From the NCBI GenBank assembly GCA_945864145.1, contig CAMBAN010000005.1, positions 1-55,400 of the forward strand: DNA of 55,400 bases, read 5' to 3'. Both the position numbers and the translations under genes were made by a program. Under the pieces are notes generated by a model. It was given only the letters and a program-made list of their open reading frames with translations, did no database searches and was not told the DNA's origin. The stretch is from an uncultured Lachnospiraceae bacterium (GTDB lineage Bacteria > Bacillota > Clostridia > Lachnospirales > Lachnospiraceae). Each line of letters starts with the position of its first letter. Position 1 is the stretch's first letter. This document shows positions 7,257 to 54,278 of the stretch, one piece after another.

Positions 7257-8687
7257 TTACAACAGTTCTTTTAATAACTGGTTGACCATACCAGGGTCTG
7301 CCTTGCCCTTCATCGCCTTCATGGTCTGTCCTACCAAAAAGCCAATTGCTTTTTCTTTTCCGTTTCTATAATCCTCTACCGACTGTGGATTTGCAGCAAT
7401 TACTTCCTCAACCGTTTTTCTTAACGCACCCTCATCATTTACTGTCTTTAAACCTTTTTCTTCGACATATTTTTCAGGGTCTACGTTTTGTGCAAACATA
7501 ACTTCAAATACTTCTTTTGCAACAGAGGAATTGATTGCTTTACTGTCTACAAGTGCAATCAGCTTAGCAAGATTTTCCGGTGAGAATAAAATATCTTCCG
7601 GGTCCATGCTCTTTTCCTTAAGCAGACGAAGTGTCTCTCCCATTAACCAGTTAGAAACTTTCTTTGGTTGTTTGCAGATAGCTACAGTTTCCTCAAAGAT
7701 ATCTGCCATATGCTTAGAGTCAGTTATGATGCCAATGTCATATTCCGGGATATCATATTCCTCTTTATAACGCACCATTTTTTTCTCACGAAATTCCGGC
7801 TGATTTTCTTTGATTTTCGCAATCCATTCATCGCTAATGAAAACAGGAACTAAATCCGGGTCCGGGAAATAACGGTAGTCCTGTGCGTCCTCTTTTGAAC
7901 GCATTGCATAGGAATACTCTTTTGCATCGTCCCAGCGACGTGTTTCCTGAATGACCTCTTTTCCGGACTCAAGTAATTCAATCTGACGTTCTCTTTCTCC
8001 TTCAATCGCATGCTGAATTGCACGGAAAGAATTCAAATTTTTCATTTCTGTTCTGGTACCAAATTCCTTTGCACCAACCTCACGTACAGAAATATTAACA
8101 TCAGCTCTCATAGAACCTTCATTTAACTTACAGTCTGATGCACCTAAATACTGGATTGTCATACGAAGCTTTTCCAGATAAGCAATAACTTCCTCTGCAC
8201 TTCTCATATCAGGTTCTGATACGATTTCAATCAAAGGTACACCGGAACGATTGTAATCTACTAAAGAGCAGTCCTCCCATTCATCATGGATAAGCTTTCC
8301 TGCGTCTTCTTCCATATGAATTTCGTGAATACCAACTGACTTTTTGCCATTCTCTGTTTCTATTTCCACATGACCATTTCTACAGATTGGCAGATAAAGC
8401 TGGCTAATCTGGTAGTTCTGTGGATTATCAGGATAGAAATAATTTTTTCTGTCAAACTTACAATACTGAGTAATCGTACAGTTTGTAGCAAGTCCTACTG
8501 CTACTGCATATTCGACCACCTGCTTATTTAAGACGGGTAAAGAACCCGGCATACCTGTACAAACAGGACATGTATGTGTATTGGGTGCGCCACCAAAAGC
8601 GGTAGAACAGCCACAGAAAATTTTTGTCTTTGTTGCAAGCTCAACGTGAACCTCAAGACCAATCACTGTTTCATATTGCTTTGCCAT
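7257..8687 (-). CDS. gatB: Asp-tRNA(Asn)/Glu-tRNA(Gln) amidotransferase subunit B
   Basis: The GatB subunit (476 residues, normal length) binds misacylated tRNA and activates the Asp or Glu side chain for amidation. Visible signatures are the start YETVIGLEVHVELATKTKIF, the zinc-type cysteines CGCS and CPVC (about 25-42), FDRKNYFYPDNPQNYQISQ, and the C-terminal YqeY-like tail ending KGKADPGMVNQLLKELL. It starts 3 bases after the gatA stop, which suggests translational coupling, and it is the last gene of the operon. Since a GlnRS gene is present in the window, the likely main product is Asn-tRNA(Asn). Confidence 0.97.
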   Translation of the reverse strand: MAKQYETVIGLEVHVELATKTKIFCGCSTAFGGAPNTHTCPVCTGMPGSLPVLNKQVVEYAVAVGLATNCTITQYCKFDRKNYFYPDNPQNYQISQLYLPICRNGHVEIETENGKKSVGIHEIHMEEDAGKLIHDEWEDCSLVDYNRSGVPLIEIVSEPDMRSAEEVIAYLEKLRMTIQYLGASDCKLNEGSMRADVNISVREVGAKEFGTRTEMKNLNSFRAIQHAIEGERERQIELLESGKEVIQETRRWDDAKEYSYAMRSKEDAQDYRYFPDPDLVPVFISDEWIAKIKENQPEFREKKMVRYKEEYDIPEYDIGIITDSKHMADIFEETVAICKQPKKVSNWLMGETLRLLKEKSMDPEDILFSPENLAKLIALVDSKAINSSVAKEVFEVMFAQNVDPEKYVEEKGLKTVNDEGALRKTVEEVIAANPQSVEDYRNGKEKAIGFLVGQTMKAMKGKADPGMVNQLLKELL

Positions 8688-8690
8688 ATC

Positions 8691-10130
8691 CTACACCGTT
8701 CCTTTCTCGTACGTATACGCTGCCTGAATCAGTTTTTTCTCTTCAAAACTGTTTGCAAGCATCTGCATACCAATCGGCAATCCATTTGCATCCTTTCCGC
8801 ATGGTAGAGAAATACCCGGAATACCTGCAAGGTTTGCAGAAATGGTATAAATATCGCCAAGATACATTTTGATTGGATCTGAAAGACTTTGTCCAAGCTT
8901 TGGTGCTGTGGTCGGTGCAACAGGTCCTAAAATAATATCATATTTCTCAAAGGCTTCATCAAAGGCTTTTCTAATCATTGCCTTTACGCGAAGTGCTTTC
9001 AAATAGTATGCATCATAATAACCGGAGCTTAATACAAAGGAACCAAGCATAATTCTTCGTTTTACCTCAGGTCCAAAGCCTTCGGAACGGGTCTTTTTAT
9101 ACATATTGTGCAAGCCCTCTGCATCAGCAGCACGATAACCGTATTTAATACCATCAAAACGCTCCAGATTTGAGCTTGCTTCTGCTGCCGCAATGGTATA
9201 GTAAGTAGGAATCGCATAGGAAACAAGGCTTAAATCAAATTCCTCTACAATAGCACCCTTCTTTTCAAACTCCTTCGCTGCTGCAAGCACTGCATTTTTT
9301 ACTTCTTCGTCCAGTCCTTCTCCAAAATAATCTCTTGGAATACCAATTCTCATACCCTTTACATCATCCACTAAGGCTGAAGTAAAATCAGTATCCTTTC
9401 TGTCAATGGAGGTTGAGTCCTTTTTATCATAAGAAGTAATCACTTCTAAAACAGTGGCACAATCTGCTACATTTTTCGTAATTGGTCCAATCTGGTCCAG
9501 AGAAGAACCATAGGCAATAAGCCCGTATCTGGAAACTGTTCCGTAGGTAGGTTTTAAACCAACGACACCACAATAGGAAGCAGGCTGTCTGATAGAACCA
9601 CCTGTATCAGAACCTAATGCAAAAAAGCATTCATTCGCTGCTACAGCGGCTGCGGAACCACCTGAAGAACCACCAGGTACATGCTCTGTATTTCTTGGAT
9701 TTTTGGTTACACCATAGGCAGAGGTTTCTGTCGTAGAACCCATGGCAAATTCATCCATATTTGTTTTTCCAATCATAACAACACCGGCTTTTTCCAAATT
9801 GATAACCGCCTCTGCAGAAAAGGTTGGAATAAAATTATTTAAGATTTTGGAAGAACAGGTCGTAAGTACACCCTCTGTACACATATTATCCTTGATGGCA
9901 ACAGGTACACCTGCCAAAGGACCGGAAAGCTCTCCTGCCTCAATTTTCTTTTGTACTTCTTCTGCCTTTTTCAATGCCCCTTCTTTATCGATGGTCACAT
10001 AGGCATTGATTTCTTTTTCCACTTCTTCTATTTTAGAAAGCACTGCCTGCATGGCTTCCACCGCAGTAGTCTTTCCCTCTTTAATAGCTGCTGAAAGCTC
10101 AACAGCAGACAATGATAAAATATCTTCCAT
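8691..10130 (-). CDS. gatA: Asp-tRNA(Asn)/Glu-tRNA(Gln) amidotransferase subunit A
   Basis: Amidase-signature subunit that releases ammonia from glutamine for the transamidation. The catalytic Lys is in VAIKDNMCTEG, and the Ser-cisSer region is seen in GGSSGGSAAAVAANE and GSDTGGSIRQPASYCG. I start at the ATG at 10128-10130 (MEDILSLSAVEL, 479 residues). A GTG four codons upstream at 10142 lies directly against the AGAAAGG site, so it is less likely. It follows gatC and precedes gatB with very short gaps. All catalytic residues look intact. Confidence 0.96.
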   Translation of the reverse strand: MEDILSLSAVELSAAIKEGKTTAVEAMQAVLSKIEEVEKEINAYVTIDKEGALKKAEEVQKKIEAGELSGPLAGVPVAIKDNMCTEGVLTTCSSKILNNFIPTFSAEAVINLEKAGVVMIGKTNMDEFAMGSTTETSAYGVTKNPRNTEHVPGGSSGGSAAAVAANECFFALGSDTGGSIRQPASYCGVVGLKPTYGTVSRYGLIAYGSSLDQIGPITKNVADCATVLEVITSYDKKDSTSIDRKDTDFTSALVDDVKGMRIGIPRDYFGEGLDEEVKNAVLAAAKEFEKKGAIVEEFDLSLVSYAIPTYYTIAAAEASSNLERFDGIKYGYRAADAEGLHNMYKKTRSEGFGPEVKRRIMLGSFVLSSGYYDAYYLKALRVKAMIRKAFDEAFEKYDIILGPVAPTTAPKLGQSLSDPIKMYLGDIYTISANLAGIPGISLPCGKDANGLPIGMQMLANSFEEKKLIQAAYTYEKGTV

Positions 10131-10150
10131 ATTTGCAAACACGCCTTTCT

Positions 10151-10444
10151 CTAGTCAAACGTTCTTGGCACCATGAACATATTGTCCTTTTCACCCGGAG
10201 CATTTTTCAAGGTCTTTTCGCTTTCATCTCCGTTTGTCACAATATCCTCGCGAAATACATTCTGTACAGGAAATACATGAGACATTGGCTCAATACCTGT
10301 TGTATCTAACTCGTTTAACTGGTCGATATAGTCTAACATGCTTCCCATATCCTTTTTCGCCTGCTCCTTTTCCTCATCAGAAAGCTCAAGCTTTGCCAGG
10401 ATACCTACATATTCAATTGTTTCATCAGAAATAATATTAGACAT
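10151..10444 (-). CDS. gatC: Asp-tRNA(Asn)/Glu-tRNA(Gln) amidotransferase subunit C
   Basis: Small subunit (97 residues) that wraps GatA and GatB together. It matches the family in length and in the helical N-terminus ([20 protein letters not shown]) and the typical middle [12 protein letters not shown] with the C-terminal FREDIV region. ATG with a strong AGGAGG upstream. Located between aspS (10 bases) and gatA. Confidence 0.96.
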
Positions 10445-12243: not shown

Positions 12244-12511
12244 TAAAAAAAGTCCCGGAATACATTTTTGTATTCCGGGACGGATAAATCTATTATCCGC
12301 GGTACCACCCGCATTGGTAAGCCGTCATCTCCATCAAGATGTTTTATCGCCCTACCCACTCTTTCATTTAACGCATGAGTACGTATTACCCTACTTAGTT
12401 CAGATAATCTGCTCCAGAGTGTTCCCTTTATTAACTTCCGCGAACAGCGCTTTCAGTCGGTGACGCCGTATTCCTGTCGTTTCCCTTAATAAGAGTCTCT
12501 TTCTTCGCATT
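12244..12511 (-). promoter_or_regulatory. T-box riboswitch of aspS-gatCAB, specifier GAAC
   Basis: Read on the minus strand, the leader has a Stem I (TTATTAA pairing with TTAATAA, base AGAG with CTCT), then the canonical T-box GGGTGGTACCGCG at 12298-12310, then a terminator. The unpaired 3' side of the specifier loop reads AGGGAACA: AAC at 12421-12423 (Asn) overlaps GAA at 12422-12424 (Glu). No Asp codon (GAC/GAT) sits there. Uncharged tRNA should stabilise the antiterminator and switch on the operon. A leader of this kind with overlapping Asn/Glu codons is, as I recall, described for the transamidation operon of Clostridium acetobutylicum. Confidence 0.93.
12245..12281 (-). terminator. T-box terminator hairpin
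   Basis: Stem GTCCCGGAATAC (12252-12263) with GTATTCCGGGAC (12270-12281), followed on the minus strand by a run of seven T (12251-12245). It is the off-state structure of the T-box and competes with the antiterminator that includes the GGTGG element. Confidence 0.92.
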
Positions 12512-12543
12512 TCAAGATGTATAATTATTCAATACATAGATGT

Positions 12544-12583: not shown

Positions 12584-13732
12584 TTATTTTTCCAGCAAAC
12601 TTTTATCTTTGAAATTGCTGACATAACGTTCTACTGTTTCTAACACGATAACGTCCGGTTTGTATTGTTCTAACATACCCAGAGAAAATTCATCCTTCCA
12701 GTTAATCCATTCTACCTGTCCAAAATATGCTTTTGACACGGTAGAAAAGAAGCCGCCAAAGGAATCTCCTACTACTAAAACAGTTTTATCCTGAAACATA
12801 TCAGGGTTAGCAGAATCCGGATCAATCACATATACAGTATCTATTGCATATTCCTTATCCACCCCTGCAATCGTAGCTAAATCGCCTGCAAGCTCCTGCG
12901 AATTGATATCAAAATGAACATCGGAGACCTCCTCCTTCTGTCCATATGCTGTTTCATAGAAGTTTTGAAAGCCAACAAAAGCACCTATCTGATTCCAATG
13001 CGTATCCGTCTTATAATACACTTGATAATCCTTGCTGGCTTCTATCAGTTCTTTTTTCGGATATACATACGTAACATCCGAATTTGCCCATAAATATTCT
13101 GCGACCTGGTCTGCACGTGTTGTTTCATTGACACGCGCCACCGTATCAGGCATATATTGCTCATATACAGATTCCTTATTAGGTGCGCAGAAAACATAAA
13201 ACTCTATGCCACGCTCCTCAAAATAATCACGCATTTCTTCCAGATTATTTTTTACCTGTAAAAGCTCCTCCTCTGTATAATGATTGATACCCATATAATC
13301 ATAAATCGGGTAACCGTCATTTTGGGTTTTATAGAACAGATAATTGTCTTTTCCGACGAGTACCTGCGTTGACTCAATATACATACCGCCCGTCATCCAT
13401 TTGGTTAATTGCGTATTGAAAGCTATCATTTTCGTCTTTCCAAAAAGCATATCCGTAAAGGTATTTATTCTTGTCTGTAAAGCTAAAAACCAATTTTGTT
13501 TTTGTGCTTCCTGTTCTGGTTGACTTTCCTCCGTGCTTTCTTCTGTTACTACATTTTCCTGTGCTGTATTTTGCTGCAGTGTTCCGTTTTGTTCCAGTAA
13601 ATCCTGCACTGCACTGTCTGTTCCGTTTTCTGTCTGTGGCACGACGCTTCTAAATAATGTCACCACAAATACACTCATGATGAACAGAAGAAATACAATT
13701 GTTATCCATTTATCTCTTTTTTTCATAGTCAT
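12584..13732 (-). CDS. DHHW/AlgX-like protein of an MBOAT acylation pair
   Basis: Membrane-anchored extracellular protein of 382 residues: one N-terminal membrane helix (about 9-29), a low-complexity Gln/Glu/Thr linker (about 35-80), then an SGNH-like domain. The motif DTHWN (243-247) and GDSFGG (322-327) give the catalytic Asp, His and Ser expected for the AlgJ/AlgX/DHHW family. Such proteins take an acyl group delivered by an MBOAT partner and transfer it to an extracellular polymer. The MBOAT gene is directly upstream (33 bases), and dapF precedes that. The acylated polymer is unknown. The T-box promoter of the next operon begins just behind its stop. Confidence 0.82.
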   Translation of the reverse strand: MTMKKRDKWITIVFLLFIMSVFVVTLFRSVVPQTENGTDSAVQDLLEQNGTLQQNTAQENVVTEESTEESQPEQEAQKQNWFLALQTRINTFTDMLFGKTKMIAFNTQLTKWMTGGMYIESTQVLVGKDNYLFYKTQNDGYPIYDYMGINHYTEEELLQVKNNLEEMRDYFEERGIEFYVFCAPNKESVYEQYMPDTVARVNETTRADQVAEYLWANSDVTYVYPKKELIEASKDYQVYYKTDTHWNQIGAFVGFQNFYETAYGQKEEVSDVHFDINSQELAGDLATIAGVDKEYAIDTVYVIDPDSANPDMFQDKTVLVVGDSFGGFFSTVSKAYFGQVEWINWKDEFSLGMLEQYKPDVIVLETVERYVSNFKDKSLLEK

Positions 13733-13765
13733 TTTGCCCTTTCATCCAATCAAATCCCTGTTACC

Positions 13766-15175
13766 TTAGAAATTAAAGTAAATAAATGGGTTGTACGCAT
13801 TGTTAATGATAAAGGAAACTGATACGACTAATACGACCAAAATTCCTACCGTATATACCGCCTGCCAAATTTTGCTGTCCTTGAGTTTTTCATCAAGCTT
13901 TGGCATAAACGGCGTACAACTGATAAGTGCTACTGCATAATAAATCCAATTTTGCCTGATATAAGCCCATACAGACTTGTCCATAAAGCCTTTTGCACCA
14001 ATGCCAAACATCGCCTTGATATAAACAATGGCACCTGAAAGATTATCAGATCTGAAAATAACCCAGCCTAAAACTACAAACAGCATGGTATAAATATGTC
14101 CCCACCAACTGTTCTTTTTGCTTAAGCCTGTAAATTTCTCAAAAGTAAGAATGACAAAATACATCAGTCCCCATGCAATAAAAGTCCAGTTTGCTCCATG
14201 CCAGATACCTGTCAATAGCCATACCACAAATAAATTAAATACAAGTCTTGGCTTGGACACACGGCTTCCTCCAAGTGGGAAATATACATAGTCTCTGAAC
14301 CACGTCTGTAAAGACATATGCCATCTTCTCCAAAATTCAGAAACGGTTGTGGAGATATACGGATAATTAAAGTTTTCTTCAAACTTGAAACCAAACATCA
14401 TGCCAAGTCCGATTGCCATATCTGAATAACCGGAAAAATCAAACAGAATCTGTAGAGAATACGAAATCGCACCAAGCCAGGCCATACCCCAGGATGCCTG
14501 TAATTCACCCTGAATCAATAAATCAAAGGCTGCGTCTGCTACTACTGCCATATTGTTGGCAAGCAATACCTTTTTACCAAGTCCGATGCAAAAACGGGTA
14601 ACACCCGCTGAAAAATCAGCCCAGTTCTCTACTCTATGTTCTATCTGCTCTGCTACCGTTTCATATCTGACAATAGGACCCGCAATCAGCTGTGGGAACA
14701 AAGACACATACAATCCTACCTGTAAAGGATTTTTCTGTACTTTTCCATGTCCACGATAGACGTCAATCACATAGGACATCGCCTGAAACGTAAAAAAGGA
14801 GATACCGATAGGTAATGCAACTTGCGGCTCCGGAATACCTAAGTGTAAAAAGCGATTTAGCTGTGAAGCCACAAAACCACTATATTTGAACCAGCCTAAG
14901 ATACCTACATTCGTAAGCACCATACACGCCATAACCAGTTTTGCCACATTTTTGGTATCCCGGAAACGGTCTACCAGCACTCCATATAAATAATTCAATA
15001 TAATTGTCGCAATCATCAAAAATACATAAGACGGTTCGCCCCATGCATAAAAAAACAGACTGGCAATTAACAAAAATATATTTTTTGCATTTTTTGTCTT
15101 ACGTAAAAATCCGTAATAAATCACCAGTACAACCGGTAAAAATACGAATAAAAAAACCTCGCTAGGAAATAACAT
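13766..15175 (-). CDS. MBOAT-family O-acyltransferase (AlgI-like)
   Basis: Polytopic membrane acyltransferase of 469 residues with about ten hydrophobic segments. It begins with the typical MLFPSEVFLFVFLPVVL. Conserved signatures are PQLIAGPIVRY, FWRRWHMSLQTWFRDYVYFPLGG and GIWHGANWTFIAWG, whose His is the presumed active-site residue. It should move an acyl group (often acetyl) across the membrane to the DHHW partner encoded next. GGAGG lies just ahead of the ATG. The operon order dapF-MBOAT-DHHW is tight. A second MBOAT at 41553-42980 has a different type of partner. Confidence 0.92.
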   Translation of the reverse strand: MLFPSEVFLFVFLPVVLVIYYGFLRKTKNAKNIFLLIASLFFYAWGEPSYVFLMIATIILNYLYGVLVDRFRDTKNVAKLVMACMVLTNVGILGWFKYSGFVASQLNRFLHLGIPEPQVALPIGISFFTFQAMSYVIDVYRGHGKVQKNPLQVGLYVSLFPQLIAGPIVRYETVAEQIEHRVENWADFSAGVTRFCIGLGKKVLLANNMAVVADAAFDLLIQGELQASWGMAWLGAISYSLQILFDFSGYSDMAIGLGMMFGFKFEENFNYPYISTTVSEFWRRWHMSLQTWFRDYVYFPLGGSRVSKPRLVFNLFVVWLLTGIWHGANWTFIAWGLMYFVILTFEKFTGLSKKNSWWGHIYTMLFVVLGWVIFRSDNLSGAIVYIKAMFGIGAKGFMDKSVWAYIRQNWIYYAVALISCTPFMPKLDEKLKDSKIWQAVYTVGILVVLVVSVSFIINNAYNPFIYFNF

Positions 15176-52586: not shown

Positions 52587-54278
52587 TTATTTTGGTAAAA
52601 CGAAAGAGCTCTTTAAGGATACAATACGGTTAAATACCAATGCATCCGGCTTAGAATCCTTATAATCTACATTAAAGAATCCCTGTCTTACAAACTGGAA
52701 GCTCTCGTAAGCCTTTGCATCCTTCAATGCAGGCTCTAAATAGCAATCCTTTAATACTGTTAAAGAATTTGGATTTAAGTTGATAGAGCCATCCTCGTTA
52801 TAAACACCTTTTTCTTCGTCAATTAAGTTTTCGTATAAGCGAACCTCAGCCTTTACTGCATAAGGAGCCGGTACCCAATGAATGGTTCCCTTTACTTTTC
52901 TTCCTGTAAAGCCGCTTCCCTGCTTTGTTTCAGGGTCATAAGTACAATGAACAACAGTAACCTTTCCTGTCTCATCCTTTTCGTAGGATACACACTTTAC
53001 AAAGTAAGCACTCATCAAACGTACCTCATTACCAGGAAACAGTCTGAAGTATTTCTTTGGCGGTTCCTCCATAAAGTCATCTCTGTCAATGTAAAGCTCT
53101 CTACAGAATGGTACCTGTCTTGAACCTAATGCTTCATTTTCCAGGTTATTTGGAACCTCTAAGTATTCTACCTGACCTTCCGGATAATTATCGATTACCA
53201 GTTTTACAGGGTCAAGTGCAGCCATCATTCTAGGCTTTTTCAGCTTCAAATCTTCTCTGATACAATACTCAAGCATCGCATAATCAACAGAAGAATTTGC
53301 TTTGCTGACACCACAAAGCTCAACAAACTTCTTTATAGATTCCGGTGTAAAACCTCTTCTTCGTAAAGCTGCAATCGAAACAAGTCTTGGGTCATCCCAA
53401 CCATCTACAATGCCTTCCTCAACCAACTTTTTGATATATCTTTTTCCGGTTACCACGTTTGTCAGATACAGTTTTGCAAACTCAATCTGCTTTGGTGGAT
53501 GTGGATATTCAAGCTCTCTTACTACCCAGTCATACAACGGTCTGTGGTCCTCAAACTCCAAAGTACAGATAGAATGGGTAATGCCCTCAATTGCGTCCTC
53601 AATCGGGTGTGCAAAATCATACATCGGATAAATGCACCATTTATCTCCTGTTCTGTGATGTGTCATATGTGCTACACGGTAAATAACAGGGTCTCTCATG
53701 TTCATATTAGGAGATGCCATGTCAATTCTTGCACGTAAAACCTTTTCTCCATCCGCAAACTTTCCGTTTTTCATATCCTCGAAAAGTGCAAGATTTTCCT
53801 CTATACTTCTATTTACAGATGGGTCCTCCTTACCAGGCTCTGTCAAAGTACCACGATACTCCTTGATTTGCTCTGCAGATAAATCAGACACATAGGCCTT
53901 TCCCTTTTTAATGAGCTTTACAGCACCCTCATACATCTGTTCAAAGTAATCTGACGCAAAGAAAAGTCTGTCCTCCCAATCAGCACCAAGCCATGCAATA
54001 TCTGCTTTAATAGACTCTACGAACTCTACCTTCTCCTTTGTAGGATTTGTATCATCAAAACGCATGTTGAACTTACCGCCATACTGCTGTGCTAATCCAT
54101 AATTTAAAATAATACTTTTTGCATGTCCTACATGTAAATAGCCGTTAGGCTCTGGTGGAAATCTTGTATGAACAGTATCGTATACGCCTTCTGCCAGGTC
54201 TTTATCGATAATCTGCTCAATAAAATTTCTGGAAACAACTTCCTTTCCTTCTTCATTTTTGTTTTCCATTTCGCTCAT
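52587..54278 (-). CDS. glnS: Glutaminyl-tRNA synthetase
   Basis: Class I synthetase of 563 residues. The HIGH motif is [14 protein letters not shown] (HVGH). A Rossmann core and a C-terminal double beta-barrel follow. The KMSKS loop reads [11 protein letters not shown] where E. coli GlnRS has VMSKRKL. The start is the ATG at 54278, 8 bases after GGAG. Most Firmicutes make Gln-tRNA through GatCAB, so a GlnRS here frees GatCAB for Asn-tRNA. GlnRS in clostridia is generally thought to have arrived by horizontal transfer, though base composition here looks normal. Confidence 0.95.

Follow-up and report, generated by a model that had tools for sequence, protein, structure and literature searches.

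The stretch of DNA analysed here, called the window, comprises 55,400 nucleotides from an uncultured Lachnospiraceae bacterium. On its minus strand, aspS, gatC, gatA and gatB lie directly downstream of a T-box leader RNA (Table 1), as the sequence-only reading of this DNA had stated; the Rfam model RF00230 covers the leader (12514–12273) over its whole length (model positions 1–219). The leader contains a UGGN-ACC bulge within an antiterminator and a competing terminator, and the segment 12320–12238 has a fold z-score of −6.9. Sub-threshold Rfam matches to ncr1175 and NsiR1 over the terminator hairpin were judged to be due to chance. When the whole genome was scanned, the same T-box was recovered with an E value of 5.8e-18 as one of 14 T-boxes. 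The Rfam gathering score for RF00230 is 93, and the window leader falls short of it at 81.2 bits, so the curated cut-off misses the T-box and a standard Rfam scan of the window gives a tRNA as its sole entry. Upstream of the leader, two minus-strand genes occupy positions 12584–15175; one is DltB-like, below the family cut-off, and the other has no NCBIfam match at E 1e-20.

Table 1. Features of the window discussed in the text, with the evidence for each.
Feature	Positions	Strand	Evidence
T-box leader RNA before aspS-gatCAB (RF00230)	12273..12514	−	cmscan 81.2 bits, E 3.5e-18, model 1–219
Stem I, AGUA of the usual loop E absent beside the specifier	12411..12508	−	RF00230 alignment, folds
5'-strand CUC, closing the specifier loop by pairing to GGG 12426–12424	12493..12495	−	MFE, RNAalifold, third-pair covariation
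Overlapping GAA triplet (Glu), G12424 being the −1 base	12422..12424	−	sequence; recurrence of GG ahead of AAC in collapsed-loop picks (73 of 74)
Asn specifier AAC, next base A12420	12421..12423	−	RF00230 specifier columns
T-box bulge UGGU, variable base U12304	12304..12307	−	sequence and RF00230 model
Intrinsic terminator hairpin, then T run	12252..12281	−	fold z-score −6.9 for 12320–12238
aspS, bacterial-type aspartyl-tRNA synthetase, 578 aa	10455..12191	−	NF001750 and TIGR00459 over cut-off
gatC	10151..10444	−	TIGR00135 over cut-off
gatA	8691..10142	−	TIGR00132 over cut-off
gatB	7257..8687	−	NF004014 and TIGR00133 over cut-off
glnS, context of direct Gln-tRNA synthesis	52602..54173	−	TIGR00440 over cut-off

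It had been proposed that this operon makes Asn-tRNA through a non-discriminating AspRS and GatCAB. No AsnRS over the cut-off was found in the window's assembly, which is 83% complete, and because glnS (GlnRS) lies inside the window, GatCAB here need not make Gln-tRNA. The route is supported within limits: another AspRS of bacterial type is encoded in the genome (G000:C28, 53% identity, truncated by the contig end), and a genome of the same genus (G390) possesses AsnRS. The motif TGGNACC[AG]C was not found in the fetched stretch around the second AspRS. The T-box precedes the AspRS and GatCAB genes of the indirect Asn-tRNA route, and we infer that the AspRS is non-discriminating.

Loop E, its AGUA strand and the rule of a purine after the specifier are common terms in the description of T-boxes. 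On the plus strand, positions 12421–12424 read GTTC, and the transcribed minus strand reads GAAC, so that GAA overlaps AAC as described earlier. Within the loop sequence GGGAACACUCU, RF00230 sets AAC in its specifier columns, preceded by G and followed by A, in agreement with the claimed Asn specifier. Inspection of the loop found no GAC, and the model likewise gives AAC, which bears out the statement that the Asp codon is absent. The loop-E GAA columns of RF00230 align to AGG in the window leader, with AGUA unaligned, so the triplet within GAAC is distinct from the GAA of loop E. Loop E (AGUA / GAA) was not found at the specifier of the window leader, and we treat it as a usual rather than a required T-box feature. 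By eye, AGUA is missing in two of the 14 T-boxes of the genome, the window leader and L009. No report of a T-box without loop E at the specifier was found in a search that reached few subscription papers and so tells little about the literature in general.

The strand AGGGAACA, which the sequence-only reading had given as the specifier loop strand between two Stem I helices, is present in the sequence, but in the fold its GGG pairs with the 5'-strand CUC, which leaves a smaller free loop than had been described. In the MFE structure of the window RNA, this pairing precedes AAC and a single A is left opposite AACA; RNAalifold of 44 relatives gave the same CUC/GGG pairing and the same A opposite AACA. 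The −1 base, G(−1), was paired with a probability of 0.90 and each base of AAC with less than 0.1, and presenting GAA rather than AAC was about 1.1 kcal/mol dearer. With AAC unpaired while the G of GAA is paired to C, these folds favour the Asn reading. The isolated Stem I was no more stable than shuffled sequences (z +0.76), so the case for the helix is built on covariation, not energy. Specifier loops of this kind are called collapsed loops below.

Relatives were drawn from several sources. Named aspS loci were the best 80 of a longer list, and a search of 60 genomes of the family gave 30 loci. Model R1, run on 392 genomes of the order, gave 181 with a match at E <= 0.001, of which many of the weaker were to other T-boxes; part of these were fetched as 30 short-flank loci and 58 stretches, together with 2 tRNA stretches. 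Model R2, run on 391 genomes of the class, gave 286 with a match at E <= 1e-4, many having other specifiers, and part were fetched as 30 loci and 40 stretches, some of which are longer stretches of the same loci. After removal of 7 duplicates, 154 AAC T-boxes were tabulated, and 25 more loci were left unclassed. Eleven of the 30 R1 loci (L125, L127–L131, L133, L135, L136, L153, L154), in which GGAAC was read, were left out of the table. The script behind the table demanded A or G after AAC and, in collapsed loops, GG before it (L091 being a hand-kept exception), so the first counts of these bases were circular; they were redone without the demands and held. The second script, which still sought AAC and kept duplicates and related loci, made no demand at −2, −1 or +4 and gave 156 picks from 166 loci with a bulge motif within 800 bases upstream. 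The base after AAC was A in 146 picks, G in 8 and C in 2; the two C picks (L053, L209) were misplaced, their specifiers reading AACA.

Sixteen of the 25 unclassed loci are gat-linked. By eye, GAAC is present in L082, L088, L093 and L210; L087 and L070 run into a contig edge, L090 and L115 could not be read clearly, and the bulge motif was not found upstream in L036, L048, L057, L094, L098, L102 and L113. In L210 (G418:C77:43860-49866), gatCAB follows a collapsed-loop T-box, and of the archaeal-type AspRS there is just a 26-residue match to its end, as would fit loss of the synthetase gene. Upstream of the gat-linked aspS of L068, the bulge reads GGGCGGTACCGCG (CGG) in place of GGGTGGTACCGCG, perhaps in a decayed leader.

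Among the 74 collapsed-loop picks of the second script, AAC is preceded by GG in 73 and by AC in one, a recurrence beyond chance. The 72 tabulated collapsed loops have G(−1) in 71 and C in one (L091); 70 are gat-linked, and the remaining two are of untested linkage. The exception, L091:2210-2315, reads CAAC, in which CAA (Gln) overlaps AAC (Asn). Pairs of the closing helix were counted in the 66 of the 72 loops that held the 5' motif sought by the script, the other six having CUC by eye. Pair 1 was C-G in 64, U-G in one and C-C in one; pair 3 was C-G in 51, U-A in 5, G-C in 3, G-U in 3, U-G in one and non-standard in 3. At the third pair of alignment A1 (n = 44), C-G was found in 38, G-C in 3, U-A in one, G-U in one and a broken pair in one. 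The second pair (12494 / 12425 in the window) was U-G in 65 of the 66 and U-A in the other; this near-invariant wobble in place of loop E suggests a special motif. G(−1) was paired with a probability above 0.5 in 55 of the 72 collapsed loops versus 17 of the 82 tabulated loop-E T-boxes. G(−2) is conserved as much as G(−1) in collapsed loops, so structure alone could keep both.

The −1 base of the loop-E T-boxes was compared by gene context. In family f11, with an archaeal-type AspRS and GatCAB, it is G in 15, U in one and A in one (n = 17, counting L333 on a cut contig), and before aspS with a divergent GatAB it is U in 9 and G in one (n = 10). Fifty-five loop-E T-boxes with no gat over at least 1.4 kb downstream, or of untested linkage, have U in 48, A in 4 and G in 3, the three with G being L077 (aspS), L273 and L281 (both asnB). 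G(−1) was thus seen in 14 of 16 archaeal-type T-boxes with gat close by versus 4 of 64 other loop-E T-boxes, with a Fisher p of 2e-10 that is overstated because the sequences compared are related. From 20 gatB loci of the class, which include L383 and L384 for an R2 match near gatB and not for GAAC, only these two have the bulge motif upstream, and cmscan, applied to 7 of the 20, detected T-boxes in them alone; both (families f64 and f63) are gat-linked and have loop E and GAAC. In the stretches fetched for L182–L212, one type of T-box stands before two non-orthologous AspRS genes, of bacterial type and of archaeal type (NF003483), most of them followed by gatCAB, and the synthetase may have been swapped under one leader.

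A GatA tree of 96 gat-linked rows was built by a quick method with SH-aLRT support; its collapsed rows carry the selection of the table (GG before AAC demanded, L091 excepted). One clade of 86 rows (support 100) has G(−1) in 83 and U, A and C in one each, and another of 10 rows (support 100) has U in 9 and G in one, with five changes of the −1 base on the tree in all. Since the larger clade spans both AspRS types and both loop designs, G(−1) tracks the GatCAB lineage even where the synthetase gene or the loop differs; because it follows the lineage with so few changes, it may be inherited rather than selected. L329 has U(−1), whereas L323 and L217, whose GatA it almost matches in sequence, both have G. 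The second GatCAB clade, with U(−1) in 9 of 10 rows, needs no GAA, and the idea that gat linkage by itself fixes G(−1) was refuted by the same 9 of 10 aspS with divergent GatCAB. We also rejected the idea that G(−1) is a sign of genomes in which the sole GatCAB belongs to the T-box operon and must therefore make Gln-tRNA as well: a single gatB was found in 42 of 43 genomes irrespective of the −1 base, and glnS exceeded its cut-off in 41 of 43.

Neither tRNA-Asn nor tRNA-Glu(UUC) was among the 24 tRNA matches of the window's assembly (ARAGORN), and a pattern search for tRNA-Asn also found none, so the discriminator bases were taken from relatives. Among those read there, every complete tRNA-Asn has G73, every tRNA-Glu(UUC) has A73, and tRNA-Asp has G73. 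UGGU allows a Watson-Crick pair to A73 and a wobble pair to G73, so the earlier suggestion that the bulge U is compatible with both discriminators (Asn by wobble, Glu by Watson-Crick) holds among the relatives. The bulge base is U in all 72 tabulated collapsed-loop T-boxes, and in the 82 loop-E T-boxes it is U in 54, C in 24 and unread in 4. UGGC occurs in 6 of the 8 asnB leaders read and in 9 of 35 leaders of aspS alone, and in f11 both U and C are found with G(−1). As a marker of dual reading the bulge base is weak, U being common also in Asn T-boxes that lack GAA.

For the transamidation operon of Clostridium acetobutylicum, a two-codon T-box was reportedly described by Saad et al. in 2013, and the sequence-only reading had named such a precedent. 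The precedent is real according to passages of a review (PMC4052509), by which this T-box bound both tRNA-Asn and tRNA-Glu. As far as those passages describe it, both leaders belong to operons for tRNA-dependent transamidation, and in each an Asn codon overlaps a Glu codon, as GAAC at 12424–12421 in the specifier loop of the window leader; the C. acetobutylicum RNA has bound both tRNAs in experiments, whereas the window leader may do so. We class the window leader as another two-codon T-box of this known kind, with a conserved GAA overlap. Canonical Asn T-boxes before aspS, asnS, asnA and asnB share the AAC specifier and the T-box bulge with the window leader; they have loop E (AGUA / GAA), mostly as GAA-U-AAC-A, whereas the window leader has G(−1) and no loop E at the specifier. 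The lysK T-box of Bacillus cereus, in the part of PMC2916919 that concerns it, responds to two tRNAs (Lys and Asn), as proposed for the window, but it has another gene and specifier and its response was seen by reporter assay. Extracts of the T-box literature describe a general preference for a purine after the specifier and C as its commonest third base, and TBDB entries give GAA as the usual specifier of Glu T-boxes (0.88). A portion of PMC6523644 describes bacterial AspRS making Glu-tRNA(Glu), a possible link to Glu. Excerpts of PMC4919913, PMC7583486, PMC2494555, PMC7778990 and PMC4206432 were also drawn on.

These comparisons bear on which tRNA the leader reads. An Asp specifier, as in a plain aspS leader, would suit the annotation of the downstream gene, but the loop lacks GAC and the covariance model gives AAC, and this reading is scarcely credible. 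That tRNA-Glu is the main or sole ligand, with GAA as the specifier, is very improbable: GAA is present, G(−1) is conserved and the bulge U would pair with Glu A73 by Watson-Crick, but AAC is the triplet that the model aligns as specifier, the purine comes after AAC, AAC T-boxes with U(−1) precede related aspS genes, and the operon, with GlnRS in the window, suits Asn-tRNA synthesis. As a specifier in the window, GAA would be followed by C and would end in A, both against the general preferences of T-boxes.

A much stronger contender, to which we give somewhat less than an even chance, is that tRNA-Asn alone is sensed, G(−1) being structural, closing the collapsed loop with C, and the GAA overlap a by-product. 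G(−1) stands opposite C or U in 65 of the 66 measured collapsed loops, G(−2) is equally conserved, and the closing helix is backed by covariation of the third pair. AAC satisfies both the purine and the third-C preferences, GAA neither, and T-boxes with U(−1), hence lacking the GAA overlap, precede aspS elsewhere. However, G(−1) is also frequent in the loop-E T-boxes of some gat operons (15 of 17 in f11, plus L383 and L384), where the helix is unseen; moreover, pair 1 is nearly invariant while pair 3 varies, and in L091 pair 1 is a C-C mismatch.

The comparisons point securely to AAC as the main specifier. The comparative case for GAA is moderate, as the triplet is conserved within one GatCAB lineage, not in collapsed loops alone, and is found in further gat operons, and the C. 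acetobutylicum precedent comes from experiment; its structural case is mixed, with G(−1) hidden in a pair, G(−2) equally conserved, C after GAA and A as the third base. Sensing of tRNA-Glu by the window T-box, and with it dual sensing, is plausible on these grounds. The reading that we put forward, T-box control of aspS-gatCAB by tRNA-Asn with a weaker tRNA-Glu input, is evenly poised between right and wrong.

Under this reading of a main Asn and a weaker Glu input, a transcription-attenuating T-box would control aspS-gatCAB, with uncharged tRNA-Asn(GUU) as the main input, read by AAC, a step well supported by comparison. Once the tRNA is bound, UGGU would pair with the tRNA end, the antiterminator would form and the terminator (12281–12252) would be avoided. 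From the known mechanism of T-boxes and the pathway, AspRS and GatCAB would then be made and would yield Asn-tRNA(Asn) via Asp-tRNA(Asn). Uncharged tRNA-Glu(UUC) may be a weaker second input, a step for which the chances look about equal either way; it would read GAA once the pair C12495-G12424 at the loop edge opens. Because two A's belong to both readings, one tRNA would be bound at a time. A more specific form, which we consider rather unlikely, is a gated two-codon reader: the Glu codon would have its first base concealed in the conserved C-G pair, so that tRNA-Asn could be read immediately, whereas tRNA-Glu would have to wait for the gate to open.

The window leader shows that a T-box specifier loop can do without loop E. 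The T-boxes before related aspS genes, which vary in loop design, carry either G or U at −1 and come from relatives whose tRNA genes are known, make a ready test set. If both tRNAs are read, Asn-tRNA synthesis would be tied to two charging states by one leader. The gated reader, if true, would have a ranking of two starvation signals built in, and would have been handed down with GatCAB, whichever of the two unrelated AspRS genes and of the two loop designs went with it.
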